Positions 16,816 to 37,164 of a stretch of 55,758 nucleotides of DNA are shown here, piece by piece (the first letter of the stretch is position 1; each line of letters opens with the position of its first letter). This stretch comes from Pseudomonadota bacterium (GTDB taxonomy: Bacteria; Desulfobacterota; Desulfobacteria; Desulfobacterales; Desulfobacteraceae). A program made the position numbers and the translations under genes. Under the pieces are notes generated by a model that worked only from the letters and a program-made list of their open reading frames with translations, was not told where the DNA came from and ran no database searches. The stretch spans positions 1-55,758 of the forward strand of contig JAHJLN010000014.1 of assembly GCA_018821715.1 (NCBI GenBank), read 5' to 3'.

Positions 16816-18699
16816 TTATTTGGATAATACCGTTTTACTGCGGATAGAGGAGCGACTTGAAATATACTGCGATACAAATGCGACCGCAAGAAAAGCAAGA
16901 CCCGCCAAATCCGTATAAAGGCCCGGTTTAATCAAGCAAAGGGCAGCTGCCATCAAAAATAATCTTTCTATCCTGCCGGCTTTATGAACCAACCATCCCA
17001 CAACAGATGCGGCCAAGGCAATAACACCGATTATCGATGATATTGTTGCCAGAATGATTTTTGGGATGGAACCGACCATCAACAGCTGGGGAGCGTAAAT
17101 AAACATGTAAGGAACGATAAATGCGGCAAGACCCAGACGGCATGACGTGATGGCTGTTTTCAGAGGATCAGCCCCCGAAATGCCTGCGGCTGCATATGCT
17201 GCCAATGCAACGGGGGGCGTAATTGCAGAAATAATTGCAAAATAGAAGATAAAAAAATGGGCAGACAAAGGATGCACTCCGAAAGTCTGGGTCAGAACAG
17301 GCACTGTCAGGGATACCTGTATAATATAGGCTGCCACAGTGGGCAGTCCCATACCCAGCAGCAATGAAGTAAACATGGTTAAAATCAGAGTCAAAAGCAA
17401 ACTTCCCTGGGAAATCATCAGAATAATGGAGTTGAATCGCATACCAAGACCTGTCAGAGTCAAAACGCCAATGATAATTCCGGCGGTTGCACAGGCAATC
17501 CCGACCTGCACAGCCCCCTTGGCACCACTTTCAAGGGCAGATAGGATGCGTTTAGGGGTCATTCTGGTTTCCGTGCGGACATAGCTTACCAGGATCGTGA
17601 TCAGAATTGCCCATAATCCTGCCCGCATGGGGCTGTTACCCTTTATCAGGAGAATCACCAGCACGATTACCGGAAGAATAAACTGAAATCCGTAGACAAG
17701 GGTTTTTCGAACCACTGGCAGATCTTCTGCCTTCATGCCTTTCATATCTATCCGCAGGGATTCGAAATGCACCATGGAGAATGCGGACAAATAGTAAAGA
17801 AATGCCGGGATCGATGCGGCAGCAGCGACTTCGATATACGGCATGCCCAGGAATTCAGCAATGATGAAGGCCGCTGCACCCATGATAGGGGGCATAAGCT
17901 GGCCCCCGGAAGAGGCAACTGATTCAACTGCACCGGAGAACCTGGCACTATATCCTAAACGCTTCATGAGAGGAATAGTGAAAGCGCCGGTGGTAACAAC
18001 ATTTGCGACGGCCGAACCCGACAACATCCCCATGAACCCAGAGGCAAATATCGCTGCTTTTGCAGGGCCTCCCCTGGCTTTACCAAACAGGCCCAAGGAA
18101 AGATCGATAAAAAAATCACCCCCTTTGGATTGTTCAAGAAAGGCGGCAAAAATAATGAACATAACGATGAAGGTCGCAGAAACCCCTGCCGGGATTCCCC
18201 ATATCCCTTCAGTTGTAAAGAAAATATGATCAACAGCCCACATTAGGGAGAAGCCTTGATGACTCAAGATACCCGGAAGATATTGCCCTGTGAACACATA
18301 GCCCAGAAACACAGCTGCAATAAGGGGTAGTCCCAAACCCATGTTACGCCTGGCAGCCTCCAGTAAAAGAAGCGTCCCGACACATCCGGCAATAATTTCA
18401 TATTGACTCAGTGGCGTTACATAGGAATATCGGCTGGCAATTTCACCTGCAAATGCAGCTACATACCCCACGGTTAGAACCGTCAGCAGGATAAGCAGCC
18501 AATCATACCAGCGGGGTGAGGCGGCATGTGACTTTCCTCTTATGTCAGTCATTAAGAAAACCAGAATCATGGCGAAAAAAACATGGGTGCTTCGCTGTAA
18601 AACCGACTCAAATATACCGAAAATGCCGGTATATAGATGGAAAGCGGCCATGGACCATGCCACAGCAGAGACAAGTGGTTTATATATGGATGATACCAT
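16816..18699 (-). CDS. TRAP transporter permease, fused 4TM/12TM (TAXI type)
   Basis: 627 residues, almost entirely hydrophobic, with about 16-18 membrane segments. DctQ-like small subunit and DctM-like large subunit are fused, as in TAXI systems. Signature text includes GGQLMPPIMGAAAFIIAEFLG, FIVMFIIFAAFLEQSKGGDFFIDLSLGLFGKARGGPAKAA and SAITPPVALAAYAAAGISGADP. TRAP carriers import organic acids by a sodium gradient with a periplasmic binding protein. The binding-protein gene lies 80 bases upstream on the same strand. Substrate unknown; a C4 or amino-acid-like acid is likely from the family. Confidence 0.93.
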   Translation of the reverse strand: MVSSIYKPLVSAVAWSMAAFHLYTGIFGIFESVLQRSTHVFFAMILVFLMTDIRGKSHAASPRWYDWLLILLTVLTVGYVAAFAGEIASRYSYVTPLSQYEIIAGCVGTLLLLEAARRNMGLGLPLIAAVFLGYVFTGQYLPGILSHQGFSLMWAVDHIFFTTEGIWGIPAGVSATFIVMFIIFAAFLEQSKGGDFFIDLSLGLFGKARGGPAKAAIFASGFMGMLSGSAVANVVTTGAFTIPLMKRLGYSARFSGAVESVASSGGQLMPPIMGAAAFIIAEFLGMPYIEVAAAASIPAFLYYLSAFSMVHFESLRIDMKGMKAEDLPVVRKTLVYGFQFILPVIVLVILLIKGNSPMRAGLWAILITILVSYVRTETRMTPKRILSALESGAKGAVQVGIACATAGIIIGVLTLTGLGMRFNSIILMISQGSLLLTLILTMFTSLLLGMGLPTVAAYIIQVSLTVPVLTQTFGVHPLSAHFFIFYFAIISAITPPVALAAYAAAGISGADPLKTAITSCRLGLAAFIVPYMFIYAPQLLMVGSIPKIILATISSIIGVIALAASVVGWLVHKAGRIERLFLMAAALCLIKPGLYTDLAGLAFLAVAFVSQYISSRSSIRSKTVLSK

Positions 18700-18779
18700 T
18701 CAAGAATTCTCCTATCTACTTAAGGGATCAGGATATTATGAACGGTGCCGCCACAGAATCGGGTGACACCGCAGGCACG

Positions 18780-19754
18780 TTAATTCTGTTTATAAACACC
18801 AATTTCCCTGTAATATTTCAGGGCACCCGGATGAAGGGGAACGCCGATGTCCCTGACGGCATATTCAGGTGTCCAGGATTCAACAACCTTGTGAATTGTT
18901 ACGAATTTATCCTTGTTTTCCAAAAGGGCACGTGTCATGTCATAGACAAGTTTCTCAGGCAAGCTCTTCTGGCAGATTACAACGTTATTTGACCCGATGC
19001 ACAGGCTGTCTTCATTCTGGCCTTTATATTGGCCGGCAGCGATCATAAAAGCCGAATACCCTTCGTTGAGTTTTTTGAGTTCATCAAATTTTTCCCGGCT
19101 CAGGGAGATGAGACGGATACCACCGCTCAGAGATACCGCAGTATCCTGGATTACAGGTGCCGGAACAGTTGTAAAAGGCATAAATGCATCGATATGTCCA
19201 TCTTTCATCAGCATTGCTGCATCGGCATATGCCAGATGTTCAATTTTAGACATATCACCATAGCTTAACCCGTGGACTTTCAGGATGTTTCTTACAAGAA
19301 CCTCTCCTGACGTCCCTTTGAGACCCGGTGCGATACGTTTGCCCTTCAGATCTTCAATGGTTTTGATATCACTGTCACCTCGAACCACAATTTGAAGGGG
19401 TGAAGGATACAATGCGGCAAGACCTGCTATATTGTTCATAGGCTTAGTAAATTGCTCATTTCCGGAAGCCGCATCGGCATTTGCAAATGAGAAGCTGATC
19501 CCTAATGTGTACATCTTTTTATTGACTCCGATAATATTGGCATCCCCTGCTCCCTGCATGACTGACATGTTATATCCGTCAACATGATTCTGAACAATGT
19601 CCGCGATAGCCCCTCCCATTGGATACCAGGTTCCTCCGGCCTTCCCTGATGCAATGGTCAGGTTTTCTCCTGCAGATACTGACCATACACAAAGATATAA
19701 AAGTACGAACAGAACCAACGAGAGTTTTGTGTAAAACCGATTGTCTTTTTTCAT
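18780..19754 (-). CDS. TAXI-family TRAP solute-binding protein
   Basis: 324 residues with an N-terminal signal peptide (FVLLYLCVWSVSAGE). TAXI hallmarks include LTIASGKAGGTWYPMGGAIADIV at the start and LGISFSFANADAA. The KRIAPGLKGTSGEVLVRNIL stretch is the conserved hinge region. AAAAGGAG lies upstream. It captures the solute in the periplasm and hands it to the permease encoded downstream. Upstream intergenic sequence (19755-20176) should hold the promoter. Confidence 0.93.
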   Translation of the reverse strand: MKKDNRFYTKLSLVLFVLLYLCVWSVSAGENLTIASGKAGGTWYPMGGAIADIVQNHVDGYNMSVMQGAGDANIIGVNKKMYTLGISFSFANADAASGNEQFTKPMNNIAGLAALYPSPLQIVVRGDSDIKTIEDLKGKRIAPGLKGTSGEVLVRNILKVHGLSYGDMSKIEHLAYADAAMLMKDGHIDAFMPFTTVPAPVIQDTAVSLSGGIRLISLSREKFDELKKLNEGYSAFMIAAGQYKGQNEDSLCIGSNNVVICQKSLPEKLVYDMTRALLENKDKFVTIHKVVESWTPEYAVRDIGVPLHPGALKYYREIGVYKQN

Positions 19755-35161: not shown

Positions 35162-35237
35162 CCGTTTTGTTGCAAAAAGCGGCATTAGAAAATAAGAACT
35201 TTATCCGGTAAGTTGACTTCATAAGGGATCCATAAAA

Positions 35238-35274
35238 AAACCAGTGCCGTTCATTTCCTGAATGGCACTGGTTT
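35238..35274 (-). terminator. Terminator hairpin of hcp transcript
   Basis: Arms of 16 bases at 35238-35253 and 35259-35274 pair at 15 of 16 positions with loop TTTCC. On the minus strand the stem is followed by a run of seven T bases, so it should end the hcp transcript, 26 bases past the distal TAA at 35300-35302. This placement supports a transcript that includes the region downstream of the amber codon. Confidence 0.85.
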
Positions 35275-35299
35275 GGGTTGGACAGGTTCTATACAGGAG

Positions 35300-35479
35300 T
35301 TATCCCAAAATTTTTTTCAGATCCCCTTCAGGTGTTCCAATGGGGGTCAGGTTATAGTTTTTAACCAGTACATTCAAGATATTGGGCGTAACAAAAGCCG
35401 GCAATGAGGGTCCCAGGTGGATGTCCTTGATGCCAAGGCTCAGCAGGCTGAAAAGAATGGCAACCGCTTTTTGCTCATA
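35300..35479 (-). other. Continuation of hcp beyond the amber codon
   Basis: After TAG the same frame continues YEQKAVAILFSLLSLGIKDIH and GPSLPAFVTPNILNVLVKNYNLTPIGTPEGDL to a TAA at 35300-35302. This is the normal Hcp C-terminus and includes the conserved Glu and Lys of the hybrid-cluster site (YEQK). If the amber codon is read through, the protein is about 587 residues. Confidence 0.88.
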
Positions 35480-37063
35480 CTAGGAGAGAATAAAGGACAA
35501 GGGCAGTCCATTTACATCCGTATCAAATGCCTTGGTCAGGGCCACGGCAATCTGGACGGCTGAATGGGCATCATTACACTGACCCACATCAAGAAGTCTC
35601 GGGATTCCGTTGATATCACCCAGCTGATGTTTGAAAAATTTATACTTGCCGCAGGCCAGGGTGAGGATAATACTGTTGTCCGGTGTTTTTTCAACAAATT
35701 CAGTATAATAGTTCCTGGATTTTTTTACGCCGTCACAACCGCCTACCAGGAAGAAATGACCGATGGACCCGTCTTTTACTCCGGCAACAATTTTATCTGC
35801 CACCCCCAGAACTGCCTTGTGACCAAACCCCACCAGAATTTCCATGTCCTGACGGTCTTCCGCATAGCCGGGCAGTTCCATGGCCCTGTCAATCAGCGGT
35901 CCCAGATTGTTTTTGTTCAAATGCATAAGACCGGGCATTCCAACAGTACCGGAGGTGAAAATGTTTTTCTTGTATTCCTGTTTGGGTTTCTGGATGCAGT
36001 TGGAGGTCATGAGAATGGCACCTGGAAAATCGGAAAATTCTTTTTTCTGGTTCTGCCAGGCGGTTCCGTAATGGCCGTAAAAATGGGGGAATCGTTCTTT
36101 TAATTTCGGATACCCGTGGGCTGGAAGCATTTCACCATGGGTGTATACATAGATGCCCTTGCCCATACTTGCGTTTAAAACCGCTTCAAGGTCGATGAAG
36201 TCATGACCGGATACCAGGATGGCTTTTCCTTTTTTAACACCAAGGGGCACCTTGGTGGGGACGGGATCACCATAAGCCCCGGAATTGCCCAGGCTGAGAA
36301 GCTCCATGGCCCGAAGGTTTTTTTCACCGCACTCAAGAACCAGGCCAAGATATGCATTGGCATCCAGGCTTTTGTCTTCAAGGGCTGCAAGACCTCTGTG
36401 GACAAATTCATAATTTCCCTCATCTTCCTGGCCATGTTCTGCTGCATGATCGGTATAGGCGGCCATCCCCTTGATACCAAAAAGGAGCATGTGCTGAAGA
36501 GATCTTAAATCCGGGTCAATCTCCTGATTCGCCATAAGGCCGTATTGTTTTCCCTGTTTGACCATGCCGTCAAGGGAGGGTTTGAGTTTCAGTGTCAGAC
36601 TGTCGCTGTCCGATGAAATTGTACCGCCGGCGGCGTTCACACGTTTGATCATTTTGTCCCTCAGAGAAATTGATTCCTGGAGGAGATCTTCAAGCCGGTA
36701 GGGATCGAATTCCACATTGGTCAGGGTTGCAAACATGGCCATGCAGGTAAACTGGTTGGTTTGAGAATCACTGATATTTACCTTTCTTCCGGCAACTGCA
36801 GCAATGGAGAGCCCTTTAAGGGTATGGATCAAAAAATCCTGAAGTGCTGCAACATCAGGGGTTTTTCCGCAGACACCAACTTTGGTGCACCCTTTGCCGC
36901 CCATGGTTTGCTCACATTGGTAGCAGAACATGTCTTTTTCGGTTTTATTTCCAGCACCAAAGGCTTTATTGGCAGACAGTATGGAAGGCAGCAGGGCGGA
37001 TGCTGCAAGCCCCATGGTGCTTTTTTTAATAAAATTTCGTCTTGATACGGTTTTTTCTTTCAT
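35480..37063 (-). CDS. hcp: Hybrid-cluster protein / hydroxylamine reductase with amber codon
   Basis: 527 residues to a TAG at 35480-35482. An N-terminal twin-arginine leader (SRRNFIKKS, then a hydrophobic stretch and AFGA) precedes the proximal cluster CYQCEQTMGGKGC-x5-C, the anaerobe-type spacing. Hybrid-cluster motifs HGEMLPAHGYP, TSNCIQK, VGGCDG, LACGKY and GQCNDAHSA are all visible. Hcp reduces NO or hydroxylamine. The TAG replaces the Trp of the expected WYEQK motif, and the frame then continues normally. Either a nonsense allele or recoding. An HcpR-like palindrome precedes the gene. Confidence 0.88.
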   Translation of the reverse strand: MKEKTVSRRNFIKKSTMGLAASALLPSILSANKAFGAGNKTEKDMFCYQCEQTMGGKGCTKVGVCGKTPDVAALQDFLIHTLKGLSIAAVAGRKVNISDSQTNQFTCMAMFATLTNVEFDPYRLEDLLQESISLRDKMIKRVNAAGGTISSDSDSLTLKLKPSLDGMVKQGKQYGLMANQEIDPDLRSLQHMLLFGIKGMAAYTDHAAEHGQEDEGNYEFVHRGLAALEDKSLDANAYLGLVLECGEKNLRAMELLSLGNSGAYGDPVPTKVPLGVKKGKAILVSGHDFIDLEAVLNASMGKGIYVYTHGEMLPAHGYPKLKERFPHFYGHYGTAWQNQKKEFSDFPGAILMTSNCIQKPKQEYKKNIFTSGTVGMPGLMHLNKNNLGPLIDRAMELPGYAEDRQDMEILVGFGHKAVLGVADKIVAGVKDGSIGHFFLVGGCDGVKKSRNYYTEFVEKTPDNSIILTLACGKYKFFKHQLGDINGIPRLLDVGQCNDAHSAVQIAVALTKAFDTDVNGLPLSFILS

Positions 37064-37150: not shown

Positions 37151-37164
37151 TTGACCTATGTCAA
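37151..37164. promoter_or_regulatory. HcpR-like operator
   Basis: TTGACCTATGTCAA is a perfect inverted repeat of the form TTGAC-N4-GTCAA, the motif class bound by CRP/FNR-family HcpR regulators that control hcp in sulfate reducers. It lies 87 bases upstream of the hcp start, on a position suited to activation or repression from the hcp promoter. Confidence 0.7.

Follow-up and report, generated by a model that had tools for sequence, protein, structure and literature searches.

Genes with an in-frame amber (TAG) codon in organisms that carry the pyl genes for pyrrolysine (Pyl) are the closest described counterparts of the locus we report on here. This locus is hcp, the gene for the hybrid cluster protein (hydroxylamine reductase), which serves in the defence against nitric oxide, in a 55,758-nucleotide stretch of a Desulfobacteraceae draft assembly (contig JAHJLN010000014.1, hereafter the window), and its reading frame is interrupted by one TAG. 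The best-known relatives of such genes encode the methylamine methyltransferases MttB, MtbB and MtmB, the amber codons of which are conserved across species, as stated in PMC2933860. The same paper describes Thg1 (tRNA-His guanylyltransferase) of Methanosarcina acetivorans, which acquired an in-frame amber codon that is not needed for activity, and an introduced amber codon in this organism, which was read as Pyl at an apparent 20-30%. For a bacterium, a neutral in-frame UAG has been proposed (PMC3639795). Finally, marine Deltaproteobacteria using both Pyl and selenocysteine (Sec) were described by Kivenson et al. 2021 (PMC8318568); the terms "hydroxylamine" and "hybrid cluster" do not occur in the main text of that paper.

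Compared with these systems, hcp of the window resembles Thg1 in that neither encodes a methyltransferase and each has a species-specific amber codon within its frame in a pyl-positive organism, but differs in that the amber replaces a Trp conserved at a metal site. With the methyltransferase genes it shares the in-frame TAG in a pyl-positive genome, which also encodes one TAG-containing MttB, whereas the TAG in hcp is private. The organism itself is, like those of Kivenson et al. as far as the main text describes them, Desulfobacula-related and equipped with pyl genes, tRNA-Sec, a TAG-containing MttB gene and Sec-like TGA genes. In comparison with Hcp proteins of solved structure (PDB 1gn9, 8cnr), the window copy matches the family on both sides of the TAG, but has an amber codon in place of Trp and an additional N-terminal leader. 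Since the TAG is private as far as searched, three Pyl-positive congeners carry TGG at the site and TAG is an ordinary stop codon in this genome, the most likely explanation is either a chance mutation that arose recently in this lineage or an assembly error, rather than a new use of Pyl in hcp. Specifically, we assign a probability of about 0.5 to a recent private amber mutation, perhaps leakily suppressed by Pyl, that is neutral or mildly harmful and not a selected Pyl site. The type of event is one that is already known.

The original prediction, made from the DNA letters, had placed a TAG at the end of the hcp frame, followed by in-frame YEQKAV up to a TAA, and this is confirmed by direct reading: the frame starts with the ATG at 37063, meets the TAG at 35482-35480, continues with YEQKAVAILFSLL... 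and closes with the TAA at 35302-35300. Frame reading and comparison with homologues revealed exactly one internal stop among the 587 codons and neither a second stop nor a frameshift. With the TAG read as a residue, as was done for all family scores, the product reached 740.9 bits against the NCBIfam model NF003658 (hydroxylamine reductase; cut-off 367; positions 1-544 of 546) and 699.3 bits against TIGR01703 (cut-off 360.8), which assigns it to the family, and it matched the solved Hcp sequences, e.g. 1gn9 and 8cnr. If stopped at the TAG, the frame spans only positions 1-454 of 513 of the Pfam Prismane model. The 59 codons behind the TAG have a coding log-odds of 16.7, and the gene is otherwise intact. 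From the conventionally translated product the WYEQK segment is missing, W being the TAG itself and YEQK lying behind the stop; YEQK would be part of the product only if the TAG were read through. In the Hcp family, the Glu and the Lys that follow the Trp (YEQK) belong to the hybrid-cluster site. The features of the locus are compiled in Table 1.

Table 1 Features of the hcp locus; positions refer to the window.
Feature	Position	Strand	Basis
hcp (hybrid cluster protein / hydroxylamine reductase), 587 codons, one in-frame TAG	35300..37063	-	Direct reading, family and structure-sequence matches
In-frame TAG (residue 528), where all homologues read have TGG (Trp)	35480..35482	-	Codon reading
C-terminal 59 codons behind the TAG (YEQKAV...), intact, low dN/dS	35303..35479	-	Coding score, dN/dS
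Normal end of hcp, TAA	35300..35302	-	Direct reading
Intrinsic terminator downstream of the full-length hcp frame	35233..35275	-	-22.3 kcal/mol, z = -7.9
N-terminal leader with twin-arginine-type motif SRRNFIKK	36956..37063	-	11 of 14 other hcp loci aligned; Tat by motif only
Perfect TTGAC-N4-GTCAA palindrome upstream of hcp	37151..37164	.	Core of published delta-proteobacterial HcpR motif

The position of the TAG is otherwise occupied by Trp, as had been claimed for the family. We searched hcp in 38 genomes, including the one under study, obtained matches in 36 and read the codon at 30 loci; apart from the nine loci named below, the remaining matches stand outside the codon counts. TGG was found at 28 of these 30 loci; of the two others, one is the window and one, L048, ends before the site. 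Among the best 80 loci of a GTDB scan, all 80 carry TGG (one of them, L096, lies on the same contig as a locus of the former set), and so do nine further loci, of which L036 and L040 repeat the 30-locus set and which include the two other full-length copies of the genome under study. TGG is likewise found in all six genomes whose hcp orthologues are closest to the window copy (85-92% identity), and the nearest named locus among the best 80 of the scan belongs to a Desulfobacula metagenome-assembled genome (91% identity), which is why we call the assembly Desulfobacula-type. In the Pyl-positive congeners G002, G014 and G021, whose pylSn matches lie above the cut-off, the hcp orthologue also has TGG; thus, the TAG is not conserved in these other Pyl-positive species. 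If the ancestor had TGG like the relatives, a G to A change would have turned the conserved Trp codon into TAG in one of the hcp copies of this genome, which encodes two other full-length copies (on C375 and C187), both with TGG at the site. The pattern TAG-YEQKA occurred in two of 395 genomes of the phylum, i.e. in the genome under study and in G423, and a longer form in one of 389 genomes of the order, again the one under study. The place in G423 is not in an hcp frame and was discarded, as was a second candidate for a TAG-containing hcp in G021 (C120), where the aligned part of Hcp is free of stops and the site reads TGG. Separately, pieces of hcp, 60-69% identical to the window copy and in different frames, lie on C219 (L065, G000:C219:19000-22196, ~1867-2243); they represent a remnant gene.

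The search for pyl genes, which the original prediction had suggested, was positive. The assembly comprises 5.73 Mb (5,733,440 bases) in 447 contigs (completeness 95.69, contamination 5.85), and one contig, C136 (L009), carries in this order an electron-transfer-flavoprotein-alpha-like gene, tRNA-Pyl(CUA), which was identified by ARAGORN, pylSn (TIGR03912; 134.3 vs cut-off 51.15), a corrinoid-protein gene, a methyltetrahydrofolate:corrinoid methyltransferase-type gene, pylB (TIGR03910; 495.9 vs 348.2), pylC (TIGR03909; 390.4 vs 248.3), pylD (TIGR03911; 254.7 vs 150.05) and pylSc (TIGR02367; 293.6 vs 178.15). With tRNA-Pyl, PylS (Sn and Sc), PylB, PylC and PylD encoded on one contig, the organism qualifies as Pyl-decoding. 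PylSn is 71-88% identical to the copies at nine loci of relatives (L087-L095), eight of them congeners, the lowest identity belonging to L092 from a different genus of the order; pylB is 59-74% identical at seven of the nine loci, two of which are only partly covered. Because pylSn and pylB resemble the copies of the relatives, C136 fits the genus. Of seven MttB-family matches (PF06253) one has an in-frame TAG (C20:3340-4755), and its similarity to the MTTB model extends over both sides of this codon. A pylSn match was obtained in 14 of the 38 genomes, the one under study included, and 13 of these are above the cut-off; among the genomes with the closest orthologues, G013 and G017 lacked a pylSn match, while the one in G004 was weak and partial. 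The pyl machinery alone is no evidence that the TAG in hcp is used as a Pyl codon.

The complete pyl set, the TAG-containing MttB gene and the intact region behind the TAG could be taken to indicate that residue 528, which adjoins the hybrid cluster, is a functional and selected Pyl, and that Hcp synthesis perhaps depends on a Pyl supply induced by methylamine. However, none of the relatives examined has the TAG, including the Pyl-positive congeners, the site is Trp throughout otherwise, and folding of the region behind the TAG revealed no PYLIS-like or other structured element (z = -0.06), whereas methylamine methyltransferase genes keep their ambers from species to species (PMC2933860). We regard a selected Pyl in hcp as very improbable, and the same applies to the notion that an exported Hcp carries Pyl beside its hybrid cluster, which would alter the cluster chemistry or couple the supply of active Hcp to methylamine. 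If it were true, Hcp would be a bacterial Pyl protein functioning outside the methyltransferases. The intact C-terminus is not decisive, since it would look no different after a very recent mutation. Of the three options that had been proposed at the outset, i.e. nonsense mutation, recoding as Pyl and error, recoding gained a demonstrable machinery and a TAG-containing MttB in the same genome, but for the TAG in hcp itself it is less likely than a recent private mutation or an assembly error.

TAG still serves as a stop codon in this genome. In 1,228,715 sampled bases it ends 126 of 832 coding-type frames (~15%), compared to 60 of 266 in a sample of 394,907 bases from G017, which has no pylSn match, and RF1 is encoded with a score above the cut-off. 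None of 118 ABC-ATPase matches contains an in-frame stop. Among 37 of 41 tRNA-model matches that were read with ARAGORN (those on C93, C412, C120 and C179 being unread), no second tRNA with a CUA anticodon was found; we rejected a second suppressor tRNA, the anticodon occurring only in tRNA-Pyl among the tRNAs read. A general use of UAG as a sense codon might be suspected from the pyl set and from the lower share of TAG-ended genes than in G017 (p = 0.007), a difference that we do not use as evidence, since the shares of TAA and TGA shift too and base composition may explain it. With TAG as a normal gene end, RF1 and the uninterrupted ABC-ATPase matches, a global reassignment of UAG was rejected; it is essentially refuted and has next to no probability.

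Since RF1 is present and TAG is an ordinary gene end, termination should compete with suppression at the TAG in hcp. For a recent, perhaps leakily suppressed mutation, we infer, by analogy with the published amber codons described above, that most ribosomes would stop at the TAG and release a protein of 527 residues, lacking the last 60 and with them part of the hybrid-cluster site, while a minority may insert Pyl by means of tRNA-Pyl and complete a full-length Hcp; the gene would then yield mainly the shortened Hcp, along with a lesser amount of the complete, Pyl-containing one. The shortened Hcp should be inactive, because the Glu and Lys of the cluster site are lost. Leaky suppression, the presence of two other full-length hcp copies, or both would account for the tolerance of the mutation.

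A coding-potential screen placed this TAG among other in-frame stops. The screen was partial, covering 1,580,813 of the 5,733,440 bases (5,547 masked) with 1,184 coding-type gene ends, 172 of them TAG; extensions resembling a new downstream gene were left aside, and those that remained were judged by eye and, in ten chosen cases, by Pfam. These comprised the MttB gene (TAG), three degraded genes, four TGA genes and two ordinary gene ends, the latter being a PfkB gene and an AcrB-type gene followed by a cyclopropane-synthase-like gene, for which an in-frame stop was rejected. Within these limits, and apart from the MttB and Sec-like types, no gene other than hcp combines an in-frame stop with an otherwise intact sequence. 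Further in-frame TAG codons were seen in the MttB gene and in the degraded XRE-like gene; in-frame TAG is not visibly more frequent than in-frame TAA, the numbers being far too small for a test.

The three degraded genes are an AMP-binding gene with a premature TAA, which lacks ~60-70 residues compared to its homologues (L199 ~17776-19277, minus strand), a methyltransferase gene with several premature TAA (L224 ~17649-18071, minus strand) and an XRE-like regulator gene (L072 1121-1441), which has lost its N-terminus, carries an in-frame TAG where the G014 homologue has Glu and is probably a relic. In-frame TGA codons were observed in rhodanese, CCG-domain, GrdB-like and MerB-like genes (L080 16516, L027 3554, L025 8600 and L028 2509, respectively), within the matched domain in the rhodanese and MerB-like genes and outside it in the CCG-domain and GrdB-like genes. 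With tRNA-Sec encoded on C164, the first three look like selenoprotein genes, while the MerB-like gene is less clear.

The damaged genes, together with the hcp fragments on C219 and the two other full-length copies, which could cover the function, would also suit a plain nonsense mutation that left this hcp copy dead, without useful read-through. However, the three genes with premature stops are all visibly degraded with more than one lesion each, whereas hcp has one, and the encoded tRNA-Pyl and PylS should bring about some suppression; we consider a dead copy unlikely. The single lesion is compatible with a mutation of very young age, with suppression that is tolerated or with an error in one base. 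The hcp copy of the window deviates at 10 of the 439 positions that are uniform among the six closest orthologues, and two of these deviations lie at or behind the site, namely the stop and one Tyr-to-Phe change; the same count for the six orthologues gave 2 to 35 deviations each. The ratios of nonsynonymous to synonymous substitution rates (dN/dS) against these orthologues are 0.036-0.087 behind the TAG, resting on 4-9.5 replacement changes, and 0.042-0.047 upstream of it.

Some observations weigh against a recent private mutation. Three of the six dN/dS values behind the TAG (0.080-0.087) exceed those of six pairs of relatives (0.008-0.049), a weak hint, on very few changes, that constraint behind the TAG may be relaxed. 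Moreover, a long-standing, selected read-through would equally keep the C-terminus intact. The sequence also stems from a draft assembly of 447 contigs with a contamination of 5.85, and a one-base consensus error fits about as well as a recent mutation. According to this explanation, the true codon is TGG and the TAG is a base error or an artefact of a strain mixture; one such event in the partial screen corresponds, by our own estimate, to ~2e-5 errors per base, a plausible rate for a draft, and a true change at a Trp that looks invariant should be costly. On the other hand, the step from TGG to TAG requires a transition, and transitions are common mutations; inspection of the surrounding sequence revealed no homopolymer or other sign of error. 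We judge an assembly error to be possible, though rather unlikely, and it ranks ahead of the dead copy.

The terminator behind hcp, which had been described as good, proved real by folding, though a simple scanner missed it. Upstream, the palindrome (chance expectation 0.10; present in 10 of 100 shuffles) also precedes the divergent PadR-MATE genes. Its core matches the HcpR motif of delta-proteobacteria (PMC1274295), and the promoter region fits an Hcp gene. Hcp is usually considered a cytoplasmic protein. The leader of the window Hcp with SRRNFIKK, which is common to 11 of 14 other aligned hcp loci, is presumably of the twin-arginine (Tat) type, judged by its motif, and an exported Hcp may merit a separate study.

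If the TAG is an error, the case indicates that in-frame TAG codons in drafts of Pyl-positive organisms need support from reads before they are called recoding. If it is real, the locus represents a natural test, in which a bacterium with a tRNA for UAG faces a fresh amber codon at a conserved metal-site residue, and would allow us to ask whether Pyl decoding buffers nonsense mutations.
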